Shown here: piece after piece, positions 6,955 through 37,100 of the stretch | Layout: the number at the start of each line of letters is the position of its first letter | Numbering within the stretch: the stretch's first letter is position 1 | DNA from: Myrmaecium sp. VS I D KN 1 | Taxonomy: Eukaryota; Ascomycota; Dothideomycetes; Valsariales; Valsariaceae | Direction of reading: 5' to 3' | DNA length: 64,000 bases | NCBI GenBank assembly: GCA_019775845.1 | Contig: JADQAV010000045.1 | Coordinates: 62,001-126,000 of the forward strand | The notes under the pieces: generated by a model | Database searches by the model: none | What the model was told of the DNA's origin: nothing | The model's input: the letters and a program-made list of their open reading frames with translations, nothing else | Program-made: the position numbers and the translations under genes

Positions 6955-8532
6955 GTGAGTGCCTGAACATCTGCGACACCACCACCATTCCGTGTCCTAA
7001 GGTACCAGCACGATGCTTCCCCTTTTTTTTCTTTTTCCTTTTCTTACTCCATTATCGGTCATCGTCTATGTTTCCCGGTCGGCGTTCAAAGAGTATCATC
7101 GGTAGGATAGCGTTTCGGTTTCGGGTTCTCACATATCGTCTTCTATTTTCCTGTCATGTCTCTCTTTATCTCTGGAAGACCATTTCTCTCCCTCTTCATC
7201 CATACGCCTTCATCGCGCGTCCCGGTAATCGCAAATGTATATCCCGCGTCCAAGCAACGCTATTCTCTCATTGTCTTCGCGTCTCATCATGTTGTATCGT
7301 TGTCAAGATGCTTCGTGCTTTGTTCGTTTCTCGTCGCTCGTACCGGTAGGGATGGTGCTGCGCAGATAGGGGTGTCATTGCGAGCTTCATCTTCTGCTTT
7401 CTTTCCTTTCTCTGAACGCATACGTCGTGTCGAACGCAGACAACTACTTCTCCTTCTCCTGTCTCTCTCTGCATCTCAGATCTCGCCGCGGTTTCATTGT
7501 TGTCGGTCGTGCATGCAACACGCGCCTCAGGCCCCCCTCGACATCTCCCCAGACCGTCACCATTCACAACCAACAACCACTTTCACTTGCCCCCCCCAAC
7601 CAACTTCCCTCCCGTCACAGTCACCAGCACACACCGCCCATTGACTCTTCCATACAATTTCCTTTTCCAGGCCTAGCTTCCTTTCGTTTCCTTGTTTTCG
7701 TTTAGCGAGGATTCTTACGGAGGTCTTCTCTTTCTTGCCTGTCTGCTTCTTCTTCTCCTTTACACACCTTTCCCTCCGTATCGCATCGACATACACACAT
7801 CCGTCTTTCTCTTCTCTTCTCTTCTCATTCCCTACACATTCTCCACCTCGTTTTCATACCTCTACACACACCCACGCTCGCGAGGCGTATCGTATATACA
7901 TACGGCGTCTTCATTTTTCCCTTCTATCATTCCCAATCGTTTGTCGTTGTCGTTGCCACCGTCGCGTTCGTCATTGTCGTCTGCATCATCATCAACAAAG
8001 TCAGTTTTCGGACAGACTTGGATACGGACAAAAGACAAGACACGTGACAAGATATATACAACACAACACAACACAACACTCCACTCCACTCCACACACAC
8101 ACACACACACCGAACGAAGAAACGTCCTTCGACCTCATCGTTATCTTCGAATCGCGAGAGAGTCGGCACGGCACGTCAACGTCGTTTTCGAACGTAATCA
8201 GGTAAGTGCTTCGCACGCTCTTCATTGTCATCACCGTCGTCGTATCACCACCACCACATATCCTCGGTGACGTGGATGAAGGACTGCTCCGTTCATTGTC
8301 ACCGTCGTCGCTGGGGAAGTGACATGCACCGTCGCCGGCAACATTGTCTGGCAGACGCTCGACGCATCGGTGACGGACGACCTTCACACGTCGTTGCCTT
8401 CCACCTTCACATCTCGCTTCTTCCCTTCCTCCCTCCCAAGCACACTTCAGTTCACCATCCGACTAACATCATCTCTCCAAACCCACAACAGAGGAAAGAA
8501 CCAACAAGCAACACCGACCCAGACAAGCAAAA
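6955..8532 (+). other. Intergenic region and long pyrimidine-rich leader of the coiled-coil gene
   Basis: No protein-like frame is present. From about 7430 to 8140 the plus strand is dominated by C/T and CA repeats, including an ACAC run near 8091-8110, typical of fungal promoters and leaders. A likely 5'-UTR intron lies at 8202-8491: donor GTAAGT after CAG, branch GACTAAC about 25 nt before the acceptor CAACAG. If so, transcription of the next gene starts at or before about 8150. Confidence 0.45.
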
Positions 8533-11056
8533 ATGGTATTCCAATGGGTCAACGGGTTCGCCGACAGGCTGTCGCGGCTGTGTCAGCACACCGCGCACGC
8601 CTACAACGGCAACGAGCATGAAAACGAAGAGATGCAGGACGTGCAGATCGGTAAGTTTTTCTTCATTCCACCCCTCTTCTCTTTTCTTTTCTGTTCTTTC
8701 CTTTCCGTTTCCGTCGAAGGTAAAAAAAACCGCACTCACATGGTTGTGCTCTCCTATAGAAGAAGAAGTCGGCGACCAGAGCCGCATCATGCAAGACCGG
8801 GAACTCCAAGAGCGAGTCCGAGTCCAAGCGGAAGGCGGAGCCCTTCAAGATGAAGAACAAGACGAAGAAATGCTCGTCGATATCCCCGGCGCCTTTCCTC
8901 ACAGCGACGATGGCCACATCCAAGAGCCAGAAAACCCACAATTGCAGCAGCAGCAGCAGCAGCAGACAATCCCCGCACCACCAGCGGCACGCACGCGCCT
9001 GCAGCCCGCCGACCGACAAGCGCTCGACTCAAGCGAGCTGCTCGGATACATCCGGGAGCAGTCGCTCATCGGGGTGGAAGAGCTGGCACGATCGCTACAG
9101 CGACGTCAAGCCGCCGAGCTCGTGGCCACGGAACGCGGCGCGCGGATCCGCGCCGAGCGACGAGCAGCCCGTGGTATCGAGCACGTGGCTGGGAGCGAAG
9201 ACGGAGATGCCGGTCCGGCGCCTGAAGTGGCGCGCAACACGCTGCGGGCACGCGTCCTGCGTCGGCGACAGGACGTGGTGAATCAGGACCGCCTGGAGAC
9301 CGACCCAGACGCGGCGCTGCGTCTGGTGACCGAGAATATGGCGAGACACGAGCAGGCGGCGGTGACCGCTGCAGAAGCAAGTGTTGAAACCGAGCAGGAG
9401 GAAGAGGAGGGTCAGCGATCGAGGAAGAGGAAGGAAAGGGAGGAGGAAGAGGAGAGCCTGGACGTGGATACGCCAGCGCCTCCCAGACACACAAAGCGGG
9501 TCCGTTTCGACGCGACTACGCCAAGTGCCGCTCCCGTGGAGACGGCGAGGGATACACAAGCGAGCAGACCAGCCCGCAGGGTGTCGACGGTGCGCAGTAC
9601 GCGCAACCGCGGCCCACGACCAGTGGGAGGACTGCCATTTCTGCCGGAGCCTTCCGAGGTGCCGGGAGAAACGGCGAGGGAACGACGGGCCCGGCGGACG
9701 CGGGAAATGGCTGAGGCCGAGGCGCAAGCCCGTGCCGAAGCCGCCGAGGAGCGACGGAAGAAGCGGGAGAGGCTGACCGCTTCGGCGGCCGGTCCTGCCG
9801 CTTCGACCCTGGCTCCGACAATCATCACTCCCGCACCCGCTGCCCCGTTGCCCGCCGAACACATGGCGGCTGGGCCTGTGAGCCCACAGAGCTCGACCGC
9901 GGAGACCCACCCGCAACTCGGTCAGGGCCGCAAGCGCGCGGCGGAGGTGGCCGACCTGGAATCAGAACAGCAGGAAAGACTCCTGCTTCTGTACCAGCGC
10001 AACCGGTTCATCCTCGACACGTATCGCCAGGACATCCAAGCGCGGACCCGGCGCGCGATGCAGGCGGAGCACGACGCCGCAACCGAGGCGCTGACCGACC
10101 GCATCGAGCTCCTCGAGCGAGAGCGGGAGGGAGCCTGGGGCTTGGCGGAAGCCGAGAAGGCGTGGCGGGAGCGCGCGGAGAGGGAGAGAGATCGGCAGGT
10201 CGAAACCGTCCAGGTCTCGACACGCCTCGACATGGAGTTGATGGTGATCGAAACCCGTGGCGTGGTAGACAGTGCAAGGATGGACGTCGATGCCATGGAA
10301 CGGGAGAGGAATGAGGCAAGAGAGCAGGCCGAGGAGGCGCTGGCGGCCTTGGGGAGTGAGAGGGAGGCGAGGGAGGAAATGGAAGCGAACGTGGTCGAAT
10401 TGGAGGCCGAGAGGGAGCAGCTCGACATCCAGATGGCGGAGCTGGAAAGGGAGATGGAGGAGGCGGTGCACTCCAGAGAGATGGCAGAGAGGGAAACCGC
10501 CGAGCTCCAAGAAAGGGCACAAGCACTGGAGGACGTGGCAAGGGCGGAGATGGAGGCGAGACAGGTGCTGGAGGAGCGCCTGCAAGCCGCAAAGGCGGAG
10601 GCCGTCGAGCTCCGTACCACTGCTGCTGCAGCCGTGGACGCCGAACGCCGGCGTGCCGCGGAGCTGGAAGCCCTCCAGCAGCAGCAGCAGGAACGCGACC
10701 TCGACGTCACCATCAACGAGATGCGTGGCGAAGAGGAGAGCGAGGAGCTCGCGGCCGCCCGTGCTCGCATCGCGGAGTTGGAGCAAAAGCTCGAGGACTC
10801 CGAAAAAGCCAAGAACGCCTTCCGCCGGCAGAAGGAGGAAGCCAACCGGCAGCTCAACCTCCGCGCCGGTCAAGAGAGGGAGACAAGGGGAGCGCCGGCC
10901 GGTGCGATGGCGCCCCCGCAAGCTCCACCCGCGACCCCGTCGGTGCCGCAGACGCCTGGCAGGCAATTGAGGCCTCGTCCAACGCAGACGCCGCGACCGA
11001 CGCCGCGGCCCACGCCCAAGGGCAAAGGCACTCCAAAGCCGACCTGGAAGAGGTGA
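8533..11056 (+). CDS. Unrecognised long coiled-coil protein with basic C-terminal tail
   Basis: Exons 8533-8650 and 8760-11056 give 804 residues. The start was chosen at MVFQWVNGFADRLSRL, an amphipathic segment followed by an acidic stretch; the second exon's frame is also open upstream through the intron. Visible parts: a poly-Gln run near 101-108; an Ala/Arg/Glu-rich region (about 110-430) with a basic KR patch at about 215-225; a coiled coil of roughly 300 residues (about 440-735) with heptads rich in Glu, Arg, Ala and Leu, for example LEAEREQLDIQMAELEREME; and a Pro/Thr/Arg tail with repeats such as RPTPRPTPKGKGTPK. There is no enzymatic motif. It could be a cytoskeletal, septal or nuclear scaffold protein, but nothing in the sequence decides this. 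The hairpin minisatellite begins about 200 bp past its stop. Confidence 0.72.
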
Positions 11057-11252
11057 AGAGGTTCTTGTTTCTCGCCCTCCCTCTTGACAGGACCGGCGGA
11101 GACGCCGCTGTAACCTACAGACTTCAGACATCAGATCCCACCTCAGAGCTCTGCTTCGGCATCTCTTCGAGGCAAGACCTGTTTGTAAAGGAGCTGTAAT
11201 TGTTCGGCATCTTTCTCTCTCTTGATTGTGGCTTTTTTTTGAATCCTCCCAG

Positions 11253-11697
11253 AGGGTGGCGCCCTAGACAGCCAAGGAAAGACGACAGTGGTTCCGGGGA
11301 CAATGCAGAGGGGTTGGCGACCCAGACAGCCAAAGACGAAACAAACCAGAACAAGCGGGTGGCGCCCGAGACAGCCGAAGACGAGACAGAGGACAAATGG
11401 GTTGGCAACCCAGACAGCCGAGAATGAGGCAGACCAAGAACGAGCGGGTGGCGTCCGAGACAGCCAAAGACGAGACAATTCAAGCAGGACAGGTGGGTTG
11501 GCGACCCAGACAGCCAAAGACGATATATATTATAAAGAGTGGGTGGCGCCCAAGACAGCCAAAGAGAAGACAGACCAGAAAGAGTGGGTGGCGCCCAAGA
11601 CAGCCAAAGACGAGGCAGTCCAAACAGGTGGGTTGGCGACCCAGACAGCCAAAGACGAGACAGAGCAGAAAGAGCGGGTGGCGCCCGAGACAGCCCA
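11253..11697. repeat. Minisatellite of ten ~46-bp units, each with a small hairpin
   Basis: Ten tandem units share a spacer like AGACAGCCAAAGACGAGACAG and a short inverted repeat with the constant loop TGGCG. Type A has arms GGG/CCC (centres near 11259, 11362, 11451, 11546, 11591, 11681). Type B has arms GGGT/ACCC (centres near 11317, 11405, 11501, 11636). The order is A-B-A-B-A-B-A-A-B-A and the spacing is 42-58 bp, mostly 44-49. The base pair closing the type A stem differs among units but stays complementary. The array contains few stop codons, which creates overlapping reading frames on both strands; these are not taken as genes. It lies between the coiled-coil gene and the convergent glycosylase gene. 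Confidence 0.9.
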
Positions 11698-11933
11698 GTC
11701 CTTGTTGATCCGAAAATACTGTATAGATAGAAGGTACAAGACCAGTCTCCTCAATTATAAAAGACAAGACATCATGATGAAAGCAATCTTACCTCTATCT
11801 GTGCCCCATTTGATGCCATGCCTGATATCTCCACGAGTGTCCAAAAAAAACGAGGAGTGGAACAACGCTTGACGCGAAGAAAGAACGGCAAGAAGAAAGC
11901 AGAAAGACAAGAGGAAAGAAAGAGACCTACCAG

Positions 11934-13223
11934 CTATGCTCCCAACACATCCACATCCACATCTTCTATCCGCCACATGTACCACATGAACAGGCTTCGA
12001 TACGGCCTGAACCTCTCCGCCTCATCGATCATTTCCTTCTCACTCAGGTACTTCCACTTCCCCTTTCCCCCGGTCTTCAACCGTGCCACATCCCTCCCCA
12101 ACCAGCTCGCCATGCCCCTTTGCACTCCCAAGTCCCCGGTCGAGAAGACATCCGCCCGCTTCAGCGAAAAGCACATGAACATCTCTACGCTCCATCGTCC
12201 CAGCCCGCGGACGGACGTCAGCAGCTCCATGATCTCCTCATCCGTCGCCGTAGTCAGTCTGCCGGCGGAGAGCGTGCCGTCGAGGAACTTCTCGGCTAGG
12301 CCCACGATATACTCCGCCTTGCGCTGGCTGAGGCCGGCGGAGCGGAGCGTGGGCATGTCTGCAGCCACCACCTGGGTCGGCGAAGGGAAGAAGGATGCCG
12401 AGTCGGCGCCTTCGGCCGGGGAGAAAAGCTTAACAAATTTGGCTTTGATGGATTTGGCAGCGGCGCCGGAGACCTTTGGGTGAAGGTTGGTTGTTAGAAA
12501 GCGAGCAAGGTGTTACTCAACGGAGAAAATGCGCGGTTTTACCTGCTGCCCAATGATTCCGCTCACGAGACTGCGCCAGGGATCAACCTCTTCTGCTAGC
12601 CCATCTGGGCTGAAGAGTTTGCAGGGGTGCGTTTGCATGCAACGCGCGAGCTTGCCGGTTGGGTCATTGGCGATGAGGTGGGCCTCCGCTGCTTGAAGGA
12701 GATTCTCGGTGGTGATGGACGCGGCATTGACTTCTGGTCCCTCTTCAGGAGTGGTTTCAGGGAGAGCAACGACTTTGTGCCCTCCAGGAGTCTGGAGGGG
12801 AGCGTTGGTTTTGTGGGGATCCGCCAGTCGGGGATGATGGTTAGGGCTACTGCGTGGGAGCGGGGAGGAGTTCAAAAAGGCGATACCGGCGGGAGTTGGT
12901 GTGGTTGGAAATGCGGCATGATTAGTTCTGGCGCGCTTGGTGGATTTGGGCGTGCTTGGAAGCGTAGGGATGATGAATGCTGGCTGGGTGAAAAGAGGTG
13001 GTGGTGATGAAGGGATATGCTCGTCCGAAGGGGCAGTGATAGCTTTGCTGCGCGGGTTGCTGGCTTTGCGCTTCTTCATGGATTTTGCGGGGGTCGGTGG
13101 AAAGGCGCCTATTTCCTTTTGATTTTGTGATGCTTTTGTTTCATCTCGAGCAGTTCCATTAAACTGCTTGGATGTGGCATTCAACTGGCCGGCGGAGATG
13201 CGTGTAGACCGACGGAGAGACAT
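11934..13223 (-). CDS. MAG1: DNA-3-methyladenine glycosylase, HhH-GPD superfamily (Mag1/AlkA type)
   Basis: Exons on the minus strand, 13223-12543 and 12473-11934, give 406 residues. The first ~170 residues are basic, Ser/Thr/Pro-rich and disordered, consistent with nuclear targeting. The catalytic domain starts around HLIANDPTGKLARCMQTHPC and includes DPWRSLVSGIIGQQVS, the helix-hairpin-helix SVRGLGRWSVEMF (about 314-326) and VFSTGDLGVQRGM, where Asp 341 is the expected catalytic Asp. These enzymes excise alkylated bases such as 3-methyladenine and start base-excision repair. The single 69-nt intron falls right after GIIGQQ in phase 0. The frame stays open upstream to 13415, but MSLRRSTRISAG is the more natural start. 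Family and fold are certain; substrate range is inferred. Confidence 0.87.
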
Positions 13224-14224
13224 GGAGCTAGGACATAGGCTGGCTGGACGGGGTAGTTTGATGGGGAGAAGAAGGAGACTTGGGTATATTAGAATATCTC
13301 TAGATATCTTGAAGGTGGTGGTACGTCCGAAGATACAAGAGGAGGTCATTGAGAGATGCGATGACGTTGGTGTTCTTGTCGCGTTTCCGATCTGGCGCGG
13401 AACCACATGACTCAATTACTTACTGAAATGCTGACATATCACGCCTGATCGATTGGCACATGTGGATAGATCAACACAAAATATCCCATGTTCGCCAAAC
13501 CATCAAGCAACAGTTCAGTATTTTGCAACTAGATTGTCATTCATAAGCCAGGTCCCATATTGTGTGGCAAGCAGGGCGCGTACAGGCTCGCCAAAAAATA
13601 CAATGGCCGGATTGGAATGTTCAATCGTGAGATAAGTACATATGAACTGGGTCGTACCAATTCCATGAGTTAACGCGAACTTTATGGGCTGAAAAACATA
13701 CACGATTATTTGAGCAGCCCAAGAGCTGCATACAGATGTTTAGCAGGCGCGAGAGCTCCCGCACTGGGGAACTTTGGTTGCTAATATAGATGTTCGTTCC
13801 AAGCGGTGTCCCACAATTGATGGCCACACGGTCGCATGCGAAGCCCGCTGCAAGAACTCACGAGCCCCTTCATGTTCATATTTCAAGTTCCGTGGATATG
13901 GGTGTAAGTGCTGAATCATCAGCATGCCTCTAGTGGACTGACGTAGTTGTGTAGACCGATGCAGGCCACTGCTTTGTCTCCAGCGCACAAGAGAGTGCCA
14001 ACTTTCTGAACCGGATGAGTAGTGAGAGATCTGCCAATGCTCAAAAGCAGTTATGGTTGTCAGACATGCCACCATGGGAACACGGTCTGTATCCGGAGAG
14101 GCAATTGTGCTTGATGTAGAAGAAATTGAAGTTTTCGCCCTGTAGTGTACACTCTAAAGCACACGCGACCGTCTCCTAATGTCGCATCGGTATCGAACGC
14201 TGTACATGATCGCCTCAAAGTCCT
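13224..14224. other. Intergenic region, AT-richer, possible eroded coding remnant
   Basis: The part from about 13430 to 14140 is lower in GC than its neighbours and has a few short minus-strand frames with protein-like composition, for example SNPAIVFFGEPVRALLATQY at about 13535-13610. None extends past 111 residues and I cannot assign a family. It may be decayed coding sequence or plain promoter and terminator DNA between MAG1 and QCR7. Confidence 0.25.
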
Positions 14225-24583: not shown

Positions 24584-25232
24584 GAACAGGCTTTTTTTTT
24601 CCCTTGGTCTTTCTGGACGAGTCCGGTTTTCTTTTCCTTTCCTTCACTTTGCATCAGGACATTCCTCGTTTGTCTGCTGATCTCTTTCACGGTTTTTGGG
24701 GTGGAAGGGAAGGGAAAGGCTTCGCTGGGGAAAACCTGCGCTCAGTGCTGTACTATTTTTGTGTGTTCCTATCTTACTTGCCTTCCTGACGGACGGAGGC
24801 CTGCTAGCAAACGACTCCTTGGTTGGGGCATATGGCGTTGGTACCAATGGCATGACTTCATTATTTTCTTTTTTTTTTTTTTTTTTTTTTTTTTCTCTTT
24901 CCCTTCCTTACCGTCCGGTCCCGGTCTTCGAATCGGTAGCAGAGAGCACAAGGGGCGGGTGGGAAATGATCATGTAGTCACAAGTCAACCGTCTACTTTT
25001 GATTCTTTTTCCTTCCTAATCATACCGAAACAACATTCATCAATCCTCAGTCCAAGCGAGCATCACGCCCCTTAATCACCAGCTCCGGGTATTATTTTGC
25101 TCGTCTCATGTTCCACACCTTCCGCTTTTACCCCGACGCAAGAAGCAAAAGCAAACTCAATCACGACATTTTTATTTTTGGGGTCATATAGGTTCCCTCA
25201 AGCTCTGCGCTGACCGACCAGCGGCAGGGAAA
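24584..25232. other. Convergent intergenic region with a T26 tract
   Basis: This is 3' flanking DNA shared by NUP133 (plus) and ARG4 (minus). It is T/C-rich, with an uninterrupted run of about 26 T at 24869-24894 and other T-runs near 24591-24600. No gene is seen. Confidence 0.5.
24869..24894 (+). repeat. Poly-T tract (26 T)
   Basis: This is an uninterrupted T-run in the 3' flank of NUP133. It lies between convergent genes and has no coding context. Confidence 0.8.
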
Positions 25233-33330: not shown

Positions 33331-34091
33331 AGGAGTAGGGGGGACGCCGAAGGGGAGACGGGGAGGGGGTGAGAGTGAACGGGAGAAACGATGGAAAGAG
33401 CATCGATCGAGGATGGATGGATGGATGGATGGATAGGAGAGAAAGCAGGGGGAGGAGGAAGGCGCAGCAGTTTGATGGTGGTGGTGATGGTATGTACTCG
33501 ATCCTACATAATAGTCTCAGGCAGTTATCTCCGTCGTCCTGGAGTCCTTCACATCAAAGTCAGTCAATGTGTGAATCAGTCAATCATCAACCATTCGAAA
33601 CTGCTAGCTAGTATTCACCGTCGAGGATTCCGACAGGACCTCACCTTTCATCTCTGATGGGAAAGAATGCCGAAGGTCGTTTACGACGCTGCCCTGTTCC
33701 AGTCAGATCAACGATCGGCTCGAGGGAGAGAGCGGGAGAAACAGACATGCCATCCCTTCATCCCATCCCATCCCTCCTCTATGGATCCATCCATCCACCG
33801 GGCAATCACTCGGTGGATAACTTCTTAACCAATTGTGCAATAGCAGACAGCCTGCTACTGTCTCACTGACGTTCCCAGCGAGCAGCTACTCTGATTACAT
33901 AGGTGCAGTATAAACCAGAAATATCAATAATAATGAAGATATCAAATCAATTCCGCCCCAGCTGCCTCAGGTAGCAGCGTTCCAGCCCAGCCAGGCCCAG
34001 CCCGGGCCGCCGTGGGTGGTCGACACCTCAGGCCAGGCCAGGGGAGATCGGGGATACAAGGCCGCTTCAGGGAAAAGGAGGGATAGAAAAG

Positions 34092-34113
34092 AAAAAAAAA
34101 AAAAAAAAAAAAA
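34092..34113 (+). repeat. Poly-A tract (about 22 A)
   Basis: This is an uninterrupted A-run inside an A/G-rich stretch. It is not flanked by target-site duplications or coding remnants that would point to a retrotransposed copy, so it is read as a simple repeat. Confidence 0.7.
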
Positions 34114-37100
34114 CAACAAAAAAAGAGGGCTCGAGCTTTCCAGAAGACGTGCAGATTCCCTCATCCTTCATACAATACTATCCCACACTACATACGGAGT
34201 ACTCCCGCTTCTATGTACTAACTACGAGCTAGGTAGGAGTTACCTTAGTGACCACCACTTCCCGACCCGGCCTCTCCATCCTTACAGGGCGCCGCCGCCC
34301 GGGGCTGCTGCCGGGCTGCTGCTGCGACGAATCCTGGGCCGGCAATGACACGCTGCGAGGTGCATGCACCGTGGACTGGGAGGGGGTTCATGTTACACTT
34401 AGAGTAAATAGGTAAGCACAGTACCTACTGAACCTCACTCATCCTTGTAGGTACCGACTTATAAACACTGTATAGATTTGGAAAAAATATCAATTTGACC
34501 TCGTCGCTGAAGGGCGGAGGGGAAGCGTTCCTGGTAAACCATTATTGTAGTAAAAGCGCAAGAAGACAATGAACCTAAATGAAAACAAAAGAATGATCAA
34601 GCGAACGAAGAGAACACAGCCTTCCATGATCATTACAGCAGTACCTAGTACTCCTTCCTACTCCCGTAAAAGTAAACACGCTCCCGATGCGCTGCACTTT
34701 GGAAGTCTCATCACCATCTCACCACCGTGGAGTCGTCCATCCGCAACCATCCCGCCTACCCACAACACATGAAGGGGAGCCGTACATTCGGGACAATGAT
34801 AAGGGGACATGGGTAGCGAGCAAGCACCTTACGCAGTCCAGCGGCGCCTGCATGAACGATGAGCCATGCCTTTCCGGCGGGTTTTATACATATACACATG
34901 CTTACCGTACAGAAGGTGTTGTAGTATATCAAACAAAACCTCCCCTTACCTCCCACCTCCATACTATACCGACTGGACGTGCGGAGAAGCATACAAATTT
35001 TCGTATAGGAATATAGGTGAGGACGAGATCAAAGCCTCCGCAACATTTAAGACATCTCTTAAGCCTTGAATGCTTCGTAGCGAGTAAGGTACCCGCCACT
35101 AGTCCGTCTTCATCTCCGTCCAACGTGAATGCATGCCGCTCAGCCTTGCGCACATCCACACCGAACGGCATCCTCTGAGTGGATGGGAGTGGCGCTCCCC
35201 CCTTTTCACTCCTCAGCTACGACGGTAATCGCACAAGACACCTCCTACCCTTCGCAGCTAGCTAATGCATCGTCCCCGATCTGGTGCTCACAACCTACGC
35301 GCATGGTTGGAAGGGGGTGCTGGGGTGGTGGAGCGAATAGGGGGAGGCTGTACAGTACAAGCAAATTAGCTAGCTACCGAGAAACCTCGCCAGTTGAGCG
35401 AACCGAAATCGGTCGGAGCCCCCAGGGCATCTGCCCATCTCCATGGATCAACTCCCGGGCTGCTGTGCGTTTTTCCGAGGAGAAAGTGGAAGCACAGTAG
35501 GAGTAGGAACCGCCGCTAGTTCATCACATCGCCCCCTCCCCTTGTGCCCTGGCCAACCTGGTGGTCAATGACAGGAAAAACTGTACAGTAGACCTGAATC
35601 GGCAACGCGAATGGTCTCGGTCGTGCCTCGTCTCGTCTCGTCTCGCCTTCGGACGGTGGACGTGGCGTCGCGTGGCGGTGCTCGAGAACGCCCCCGGCTG
35701 CTTCCGCCCGGGGCCCGGGGCTTACCAGAATCTACCTTTGCACCCCGGACTCGCTGGACACACCTTCATGCATGGACGTTGGTTGGCATATCCTCGAACG
35801 ACGAACGATGGGATACATTCTGGTTTCCGCAGGTCTGAACTTAAACTGAATGAATTAGGCCCCGGATAGTCTTGCTGCTGAATAGCTTCAGCTACCTTAT
35901 TTCAGGTTTCTTCTGTCATTCCGCCAGGGGGCCGGCTGATACTATTCCTTGCCATCGGCGCCATGTCTCACAGTAGTTTTCCACTGCGTTGCAGGTACGG
36001 TACGGTACAGCAAGATCCTATCCCGATGCTATAGCTCCGATCTTATAGCCCTTTATATATACGGACGGGGTATATCTGTTCCAGACATGCCGAAACATAT
36101 AAATATAGACAGTGGAGAAAGAAATGCGGCTGTGTACATCGCTTCGACAGAGCGCTGGCACCAGCGTATGTACATAGCGTACGCGGAGGAGGGCCGTGGG
36201 TACGGAGATGAGGTTTCCAACCTCTTCTGCACGTTCCTTACCTTTTCTCCTGCCTCTCTCTCTTACGATGATGACGGGGAATTCCCGCTCATCCAGCAGG
36301 ACTGGATCTACCTGCCTGAGCTTATACCGGCTCGGCGTGTAGTCCGGTACGGGTATGGCCCTTACCTTCCCTCCTGTCGGCCTCCTCCCTACTACCTAAC
36401 CTTTCGCTGCTTGGACGCCATGGCCTCGGAACGGCATGCGAATGTTGCACGGTGAGGAGGGCTGGACAAACGCAGGTGCAGGTAGAAGGAGATATATCCC
36501 ATGAGGTACTAGGTTGCGAGCAGACGTGCTAGTGAGAAAAAGGGATGCCTCGGTCGACGTACTTGAAATGTATGTAGCCTTGTTCAACGGACGAAAAGTT
36601 CGAAGGGGATGGATGGCTCGGCTGAGTCGCTCATAGGGCTGCGAAAAAGAGCATGACGCCACAGTTCGATCCAGCCACGTGAAGATCCTTTTTCGCCCAT
36701 GTGTTTTTTTCTTTTTTGCTTTTTCGAGACCCTGCGCAAAGTGCAGTGACTCAGGTACTACTGCATCTGATTGGTTCCTCAAGCGTGTGACGAGGTAGTG
36801 ACTGAGAAATTCCCTTCAGCAACGAACAGCGTCAACCATTTCTCTCTCTCATATCAGCTTTCAGCACTGGATCCACCTCAGCACCGCCCGCGATCGCCCT
36901 TTTTCCAACGGCGAGCCCCCCCACCCAACCACCACCTCCCCTGCGTCCGACCCACACATCACTCGCCTGAAGGTTGCAGGTTGCAAACCATAGCCCATAT
37001 TCCCGCGTCTTTTGCCATTTGTTGATCGTCCGTTACATACATCCATCCATCACAACCTGCCGTGGCATCTCATCTCTCATCTTCCTCTTCCGTTCGTCCG

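Follow-up and report, generated by a model that had tools for sequence, protein, structure and literature searches.

The window, that is, the whole 64,000-nucleotide stretch of DNA analysed here, covers positions 62001-126000 of contig C36 in a genome of 25.66 Mb in 66 contigs. Pfam matches were found in six of the nine long frames scanned in the window, and the matched frames include a nucleoporin (Nup133-like N-terminal and C-terminal domains), MYG1, Tag1 and a fungal C2H2 zinc finger. These matches mark the source as a fungus and probably an ascomycete. The frame at 49053-50495 matches the ARMC5 armadillo family below the cut-off (33.7 bits versus 79.9). The subject of this study is a minisatellite of ten hairpin units at 11253-11695 on the plus strand, which lies within the 877 bp between the stop of a 943-amino-acid open reading frame and a minus-strand stop at 11934. 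This frame (8225-11056, plus strand) is the upstream neighbour of the array, with 196 bases from its stop to the first unit; it has no Pfam match, and its Gln-, Glu- and Arg-rich stretches look coiled-coil-like by eye. On the other side, two open pieces on the minus strand (11934-13415) are treated as what is probably a single convergent gene. The piece at 11934-12371 matches the repair-glycosylase domain HhH-GPD (30.3 bits versus a cut-off of 26.2), and no Pfam family was matched by the piece at 12513-13415.

On the plus strand, the array is flanked by consensus words that may serve as 3'-end signals. Ahead of it, at 11184-11240, there are TGTA words and a T8 run; beyond it, at 11720-11761, there are TGTA and TATAAA words, which would be putative distal signals. 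Words of the type TATATA/TATAAA are also present within the array, at 11524 and 11531. On the minus strand, T8 occurs at 11850 and TGTA at 11738. If the plus-strand words do act as 3'-end signals, the array would be carried solely by a long form of the transcript. The stretch 11185-11252 contains GTAA (11185 and 11196), TTGAT (11222) and a T8 tract, with CCCAG after it up to 11252; by these words it possibly resembles a short intron whose end is the edge of the array. Elsewhere in the window, Tandem Repeats Finder (TRF) reports only two rows of period 1, an imperfect T-run of 31 (24864-24894) and an A-run of 38 (34087-34124).

Unit structure and conservation

The five-base centres TGGCG (TGGCA in one unit) start at 11257, 11315, 11360, 11403, 11449, 11499, 11544, 11589, 11634 and 11679, giving core-to-core spacings of 58, 45, 43, 46, 50, 45, 45, 45 and 45. 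Direct tandem units in the range of about 10-100 bp make this a minisatellite. A protein-coding repeat was considered and rejected, since five spacings are 45 but the others, 43, 46, 50 and 58, do not keep the frame. TRF also gives a 184-bp unit at 11311-11662, equal to about four basic units and present in 1.9 copies, so that the array may partly stem from block duplication.

We numbered columns outward from the five-base centre (L1-L5) and defined the core as the 21 columns from -4 to +12. Six units are of type A. Their outer pair (-4,+4) is A-T in unit 1 (core 11253-11273), C-G in unit 3 (11356-11376), unit 5 (11445-11465) and unit 10 (11675-11695), and T-A in unit 7 (11540-11560) and unit 8 (11585-11605). 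The remaining four, unit 2 (11311-11331), unit 4 (11399-11419), unit 6 (11495-11515) and unit 9 (11630-11650), are of type B (GGGT/ACCC), and a T-A pair at -5/+5 closes units 4, 6 and 9, but not unit 2. From unit 1 to unit 10 the types run A B A B A B A A B A. In these respects (the ten hairpin units, the closing pairs of both types and the near-alternation) we could reproduce the earlier note, which had been made from the letters of this DNA. Two of its statements needed adjustment. It had reported no mismatch at the closing position; this is correct for the outer pair, and does not extend to the inner one, where the right arm TCCG of unit 5 (CGGG/TCCG) leaves one G.T wobble beside the loop. 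It had also listed three Watson-Crick forms at the closing position; these are present, but when all units are placed in one gapless register the type B units add a fourth form, G-C, at the outer position and have T-A next to the loop.

In this register the outer pair is G-C in four units, C-G in three, T-A in two and A-T in one, and is thus Watson-Crick in 10 of 10 units. At (-1,+1), five units have G-C, four have T-A and unit 5 has G.T; both middle pairs are G-C throughout. Because the ends of TGGCG close by T.G, the stem has 5 bp; this innermost pair (L1,L5) is T.G in nine units and T-A in unit 4, where TGGCA replaces TGGCG. In nine of the ten units, the right arm (+1 to +4) matches the left one exactly as its reverse complement. 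Counted by strand, all 50 stem cells hold standard pairs on the plus strand and 40 of 50 on the minus strand, where the ten wobbles are lost.

Conservation is concentrated in the core, with 16 of 21 columns invariant compared with 1 of 18 sampled linker columns (Fisher p 1e-5, for a core border that was set after inspection of the data). The five variable core columns (-4, -1, L5, +1 and +4) are all stem columns. The unpaired GGC loop and the AGACAGCC tail are invariant in all ten units, and the linkers vary. Variability is higher in the stem columns than in the unpaired columns of the core (one-sided p 0.012), an excess that also fits hairpin-targeted mutation.

The plus strand of 11253-11697 is biased towards purines (152 A, 150 G, 108 C and 35 T). 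Between the cores, measured from +4 up to the following unit, A is abundant and T scarce (15 of 305 bases are T), and AT skew is mostly above 0.5 along the array and lower or reversed immediately outside it. Such a purine bias could favour R-loops. Repeat-induced point mutation (RIP) raises TpA/ApT and lowers (CpA+TpG)/(ApC+GpT). Neither ratio separates the array from the window (0.67 versus 0.63 and 1.19 versus 1.20, respectively), and RIP was ruled out.

Covariation and duplication history

By mutual information, the outer pair ranks first among 630 column pairs, with 1.85 bits compared with 1.09 for the next pair. Watson-Crick pairing ranks (-4,+4) and (-1,+1) above all other pairs that vary on both sides. 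The covariation score of 0.586 was reached in none of 500 shuffles (mean 0.162; eight of the ten rows are distinct), and the percentage paired and the doubly changed cells were each matched in none of the 500 as well. Coarser counts were unremarkable: the number of pairs with two-sided change was reached in 206 of 500 shuffles and the number of further pair types in 55. Shifting the partner by 1-3 columns reduced the covariation score to 0.057 or less. RNAalifold, run with no structure given on a 29-column alignment trimmed to begin at the stem, recovered this 5-bp stem, two of whose five pairs show changes on both sides.

Tandem units are related by descent, and we set the covariation against three models of duplication history. 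On a neighbour-joining tree of the units, built from 31 non-stem columns and itself uncertain, Watson-Crick pairing in all ten units at (-4,+4), given four states, has a p of about 2e-5 or less at six rates. On random duplication trees, simulated in three settings of 6,000 arrays each (divergence near the observed in two and higher in the third), none of 18,000 arrays had a perfect 4-bp hairpin plus even one extra pair type. Under a worst-case history, in which like units are merged into four lineages, p for (-4,+4) given four states ranges from 0.00006 to 0.0019 across eight settings, some of which rest on few events. We take this last range as the cautious measure of the evidence, because about three independent double changes suffice for the outer pair; it refers to one chosen column pair, before correction for the choice of pair or for the number of arrays inspected, and leaves out the second covarying pair (-1,+1).

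A tandem-repeat control scan of 264 kb of the genome gave the array a score of 4 and 18 other rows a score of 0. The array was represented there by units 2-10 and one post-array stretch, with unit 1 left out, and some of the other rows overlap. This control is weak, since most of the 18 rows have short periods. Overall, the covariation exceeds duplication history under the tree-based, simulated and worst-case nulls, on few events. The covariation pattern proposed in the earlier note therefore stands, and since it survives the shuffles, the tree-based null and the worst-case history, something maintains the inverted repeat.

Folding of the array

With flanks of 16 nt, the stem forms with a probability above 0.7 in four of ten units on the plus strand (units 4, 6, 9 and 10) and in three on the minus strand (units 4, 6 and 9). 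In units 1, 5 and 8 on the plus strand, TGGC instead pairs preferentially with the GCCA downstream under the same conditions. Folded as one RNA, the plus strand keeps the local stem in the minimum-energy structure for one of ten units over 11245-11710 and for two of ten over 11057-11933, and long-range folds of the minus strand keep it in none. The local stem is scarce in long-range folds because the units pair with each other. As RNA, the plus strand of the array is 1.9 standard deviations more stable than shuffled sequences (3 of 100 shuffles were equally stable) and the minus strand is 1.5 standard deviations less stable than shuffles; as DNA, the stability z-scores are -1.4 and 0.0.

The competing TGGC/GCCA helix is paired in 96.9% of cells, with no two-sided change, and it can coexist with the stem only as a pseudoknot. 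The second helix of such a candidate pseudoknot, GGC with GCC, would have three pairs, none of which varies. Its energy balance is about -4 to -6 kcal/mol, as a rough estimate from stacking and penalty values. The conserved block spans the first base of the stem to the final base of this possible helix, and the coincidence of the block's end with the end of the putative helix is suggestive.

Search for other copies and related families

A similarity search of the 25.7-Mb genome, in which very common words were skipped, recovered the array only. A 17-place core pattern had nine exact matches in the genome, all within the array. Among shorter words, GGGTGGCGCCC had 15 genomic matches, five of them in the array (a reversed control pattern had 13), GGGTTGGCGACCC had three, all in the array, and AGACAGCCAAAGACGA, with one mismatch allowed, had six in the array and one elsewhere. 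A 20-place core pattern allowing up to three mismatches on both strands gave 578 matches, ten of which are those of the array, compared with 449 for its control; the excess of 129 may reflect base composition. Among the matches listed, those with a single mismatch outside the array are at C10:2206572-2206591 and C15:224428-224447. The earlier note had suggested that the stem-loop words be looked for across the genome; with the two commonest of these words and the core pattern, we found no clear second locus there.

In the window, a covariance model of the units recovered these ten alone; its next-best match has an E-value of 0.82. Rfam gave no match at the gathering score, and none with an E-value up to 5 over 11000-11950. 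There was no match to the array among plasmids and phages (blastn), nor to one exact 23-place pattern among viral contigs. Among the papers listed from the open-licence literature on hairpin or compensatory minisatellites, as judged by titles and the beginnings of abstracts, none describes a similar array, and those listed for sequence words are unrelated by title.

Discussion

The covarying hairpin minisatellite described here is real and well supported. What maintains its inverted repeats admits more than one answer. The earlier note had proposed that the repeat itself is maintained; we agree that pairing is maintained, but selection is not required for this, as hairpin-templated correction gives the same pattern. 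Our tentative preference is for a single-locus minisatellite encoding plus-strand RNA stem-loops that are kept by selection. Each 21-base core would specify a stem of 5 bp (4 bp and a U.G pair), with GGC as its triloop and the invariant AGACAGCC as its tail. All ten copies would be borne either by the upstream gene, in a long 3' untranslated region, or by a separate non-coding transcript, where the stem-loops would act as repeated putative binding sites, possibly as mini-pseudoknots in which the GGC of the loop pairs with the GCC of the tail. Selection would preserve the pairing of the stem and the sequence of the loop and tail, leaving the linkers to drift. Selection on a folded strand predicts fixed unpaired letters, wobbles on the transcribed strand and drifting linkers, and the array fits all three, its wobbles pairing on the plus strand only. 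Against this reading we count the small number of independent events, the poor long-range folding, the lack of an Rfam match and the failure to find another copy in the genome. An extended form of it, a natural ten-unit array of RNA mini-pseudoknots (GGC loop with the GCC of the AGACAGCC tail) that is included or skipped depending on which 3' end the upstream gene uses, and whose number of binding sites is tuned through tandem duplication, would be a long shot.

The RNA stem-loop reading is only narrowly ahead of template switching, a quasi-palindrome correction that needs no function and is a serious, if still doubtful, candidate. In this process, during DNA synthesis, a nascent strand folds on the short hairpin, one arm is copied from the other, and duplication and conversion spread the resulting units. 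It would yield arms that are exact reverse complements, as in nine of the ten units. Types A and B differ by two pairs, and one four-base copying event would be a simpler route between them than four substitutions. No stable RNA fold is required, so the poor long-range folding of the array does not weigh against it. The G.T pair of unit 5 and the nine T.G pairs do, having remained uncorrected, and such stems are absent from the 18 other, mostly short-period, tandem-repeat rows of the control scan. Template switching also leaves unexplained why no unit of the ten departs from GGC or AGACAGCC amid varying linkers. A loop and tail kept while linkers vary are not predicted by a purely mutational origin, and it is because of this gap that we place selection first. 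The two processes may also act together.

Experimental and comparative precedents bear on template switching from both sides. According to PMC3820800, yeast corrects quasi-palindromes of comparable size: 4-bp inverted repeats, with quasi-palindrome arms 3 bp apart, became perfect inverted repeats of 5-8 bp. The conditions there were highly transcribed DNA in the absence of RNase H2, at a lys2 hotspot, and with RNase H2 present the events were absent at all three alleles tested. The array resembles the lys2 case in the size of arms and spacer and in its arm-matching changes; it differs in that lys2 is one site, seen in selected revertants of RNase H2 mutants, whereas the array has ten diverged tandem units with an invariant loop and tail. 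Template switching has further been proposed to create and maintain the hairpins of RNA genes (PMC8794818), and the changes described there alter both stem arms at once and leave the loop intact, as in the array. In PMC8794818, however, the patterns span at least six bases in rRNA and microRNA genes compared over large phylogenies, while ours is an unannotated minisatellite with a 4-base arm; single compensatory changes were not enriched there over simulation, although multiple ones were, and the role in maintaining short stems is graded as less clear.

Chance plus duplication, aided by CpG deamination, is an unlikely source of the covariation. CGGG..CCCG carries a CpG in each arm, and two changes of the C-to-T type would convert it into TGGG..CCCA with no maintenance needed, the other states being accidents that were then copied. 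Units that share one pair may indeed be copies. Units 8 and 10 differ, over the 29 columns from -12 to +12, at -4 and +4 alone, and both differences are transitions at CpG sites. CpG ratios of 0.71 for the array and 0.69 for the whole intergenic interval compare with 0.97 for the window. The window as a whole, however, has neither CpG depletion nor a RIP-like index by the TpA/ApT value given above, and deamination cannot yield the A-T pair, which needs transversions on both sides, or type B. When transitions were favoured in the history of four merged lineages, p for the outer pair given four states was still 0.00007-0.0011, the low end coming from small counts, and the simulated duplication histories never produced a comparable array.

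A symmetric DNA site was offered by the earlier note. Each unit would then be a dyad for a dimeric protein whose two subunits recognise identical letters, which would keep the half-sites alike. This is improbable despite ten near-perfect 4-bp dyads about a 5-base centre: all four letters occur at the outer position, so that none is recognised at that place, the centre TGGCG is asymmetric and invariant bar one unit, AGACAGCC is invariant on the 3' side only, and the wobbles (T.G nine times, G.T once) count as pairs on the plus strand only.

Compared with ordinary minisatellites, the array is alike in its tandem 43-58 bp spacing, its intergenic place and its near-alternating types, and is set apart by the conserved core, the covarying stem and the varying linkers. 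Tandem cis-acting RNA stem-loops of the MS2 type offer an analogy: they likewise have repeated short stem-loops, invariant unpaired letters and A-rich linkers. The array differs from these in having no Rfam match, in units that pair with each other and in being known from DNA alone. Plant luteovirus H-type pseudoknots are compact and have a 3-bp second stem. The array could be drawn in the same way, with a 3-bp second stem, a one-base junction and an A-containing last loop, but its second stem never varies, its first loop would be one base long and there is no recoding context. Solved plant luteovirus pseudoknot structures are among those listed in PMC3835772.

If it is functional, this fungal intergenic locus would hold a tandem array of RNA stem-loops unmatched by any Rfam family. 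Covariation is usually read as proof of a functional RNA. With several stem states in the array of one genome, this minisatellite offers a compact test bed for selection on the stem versus template-directed copying of its arms, a question that PMC8794818 leaves open for short stems.
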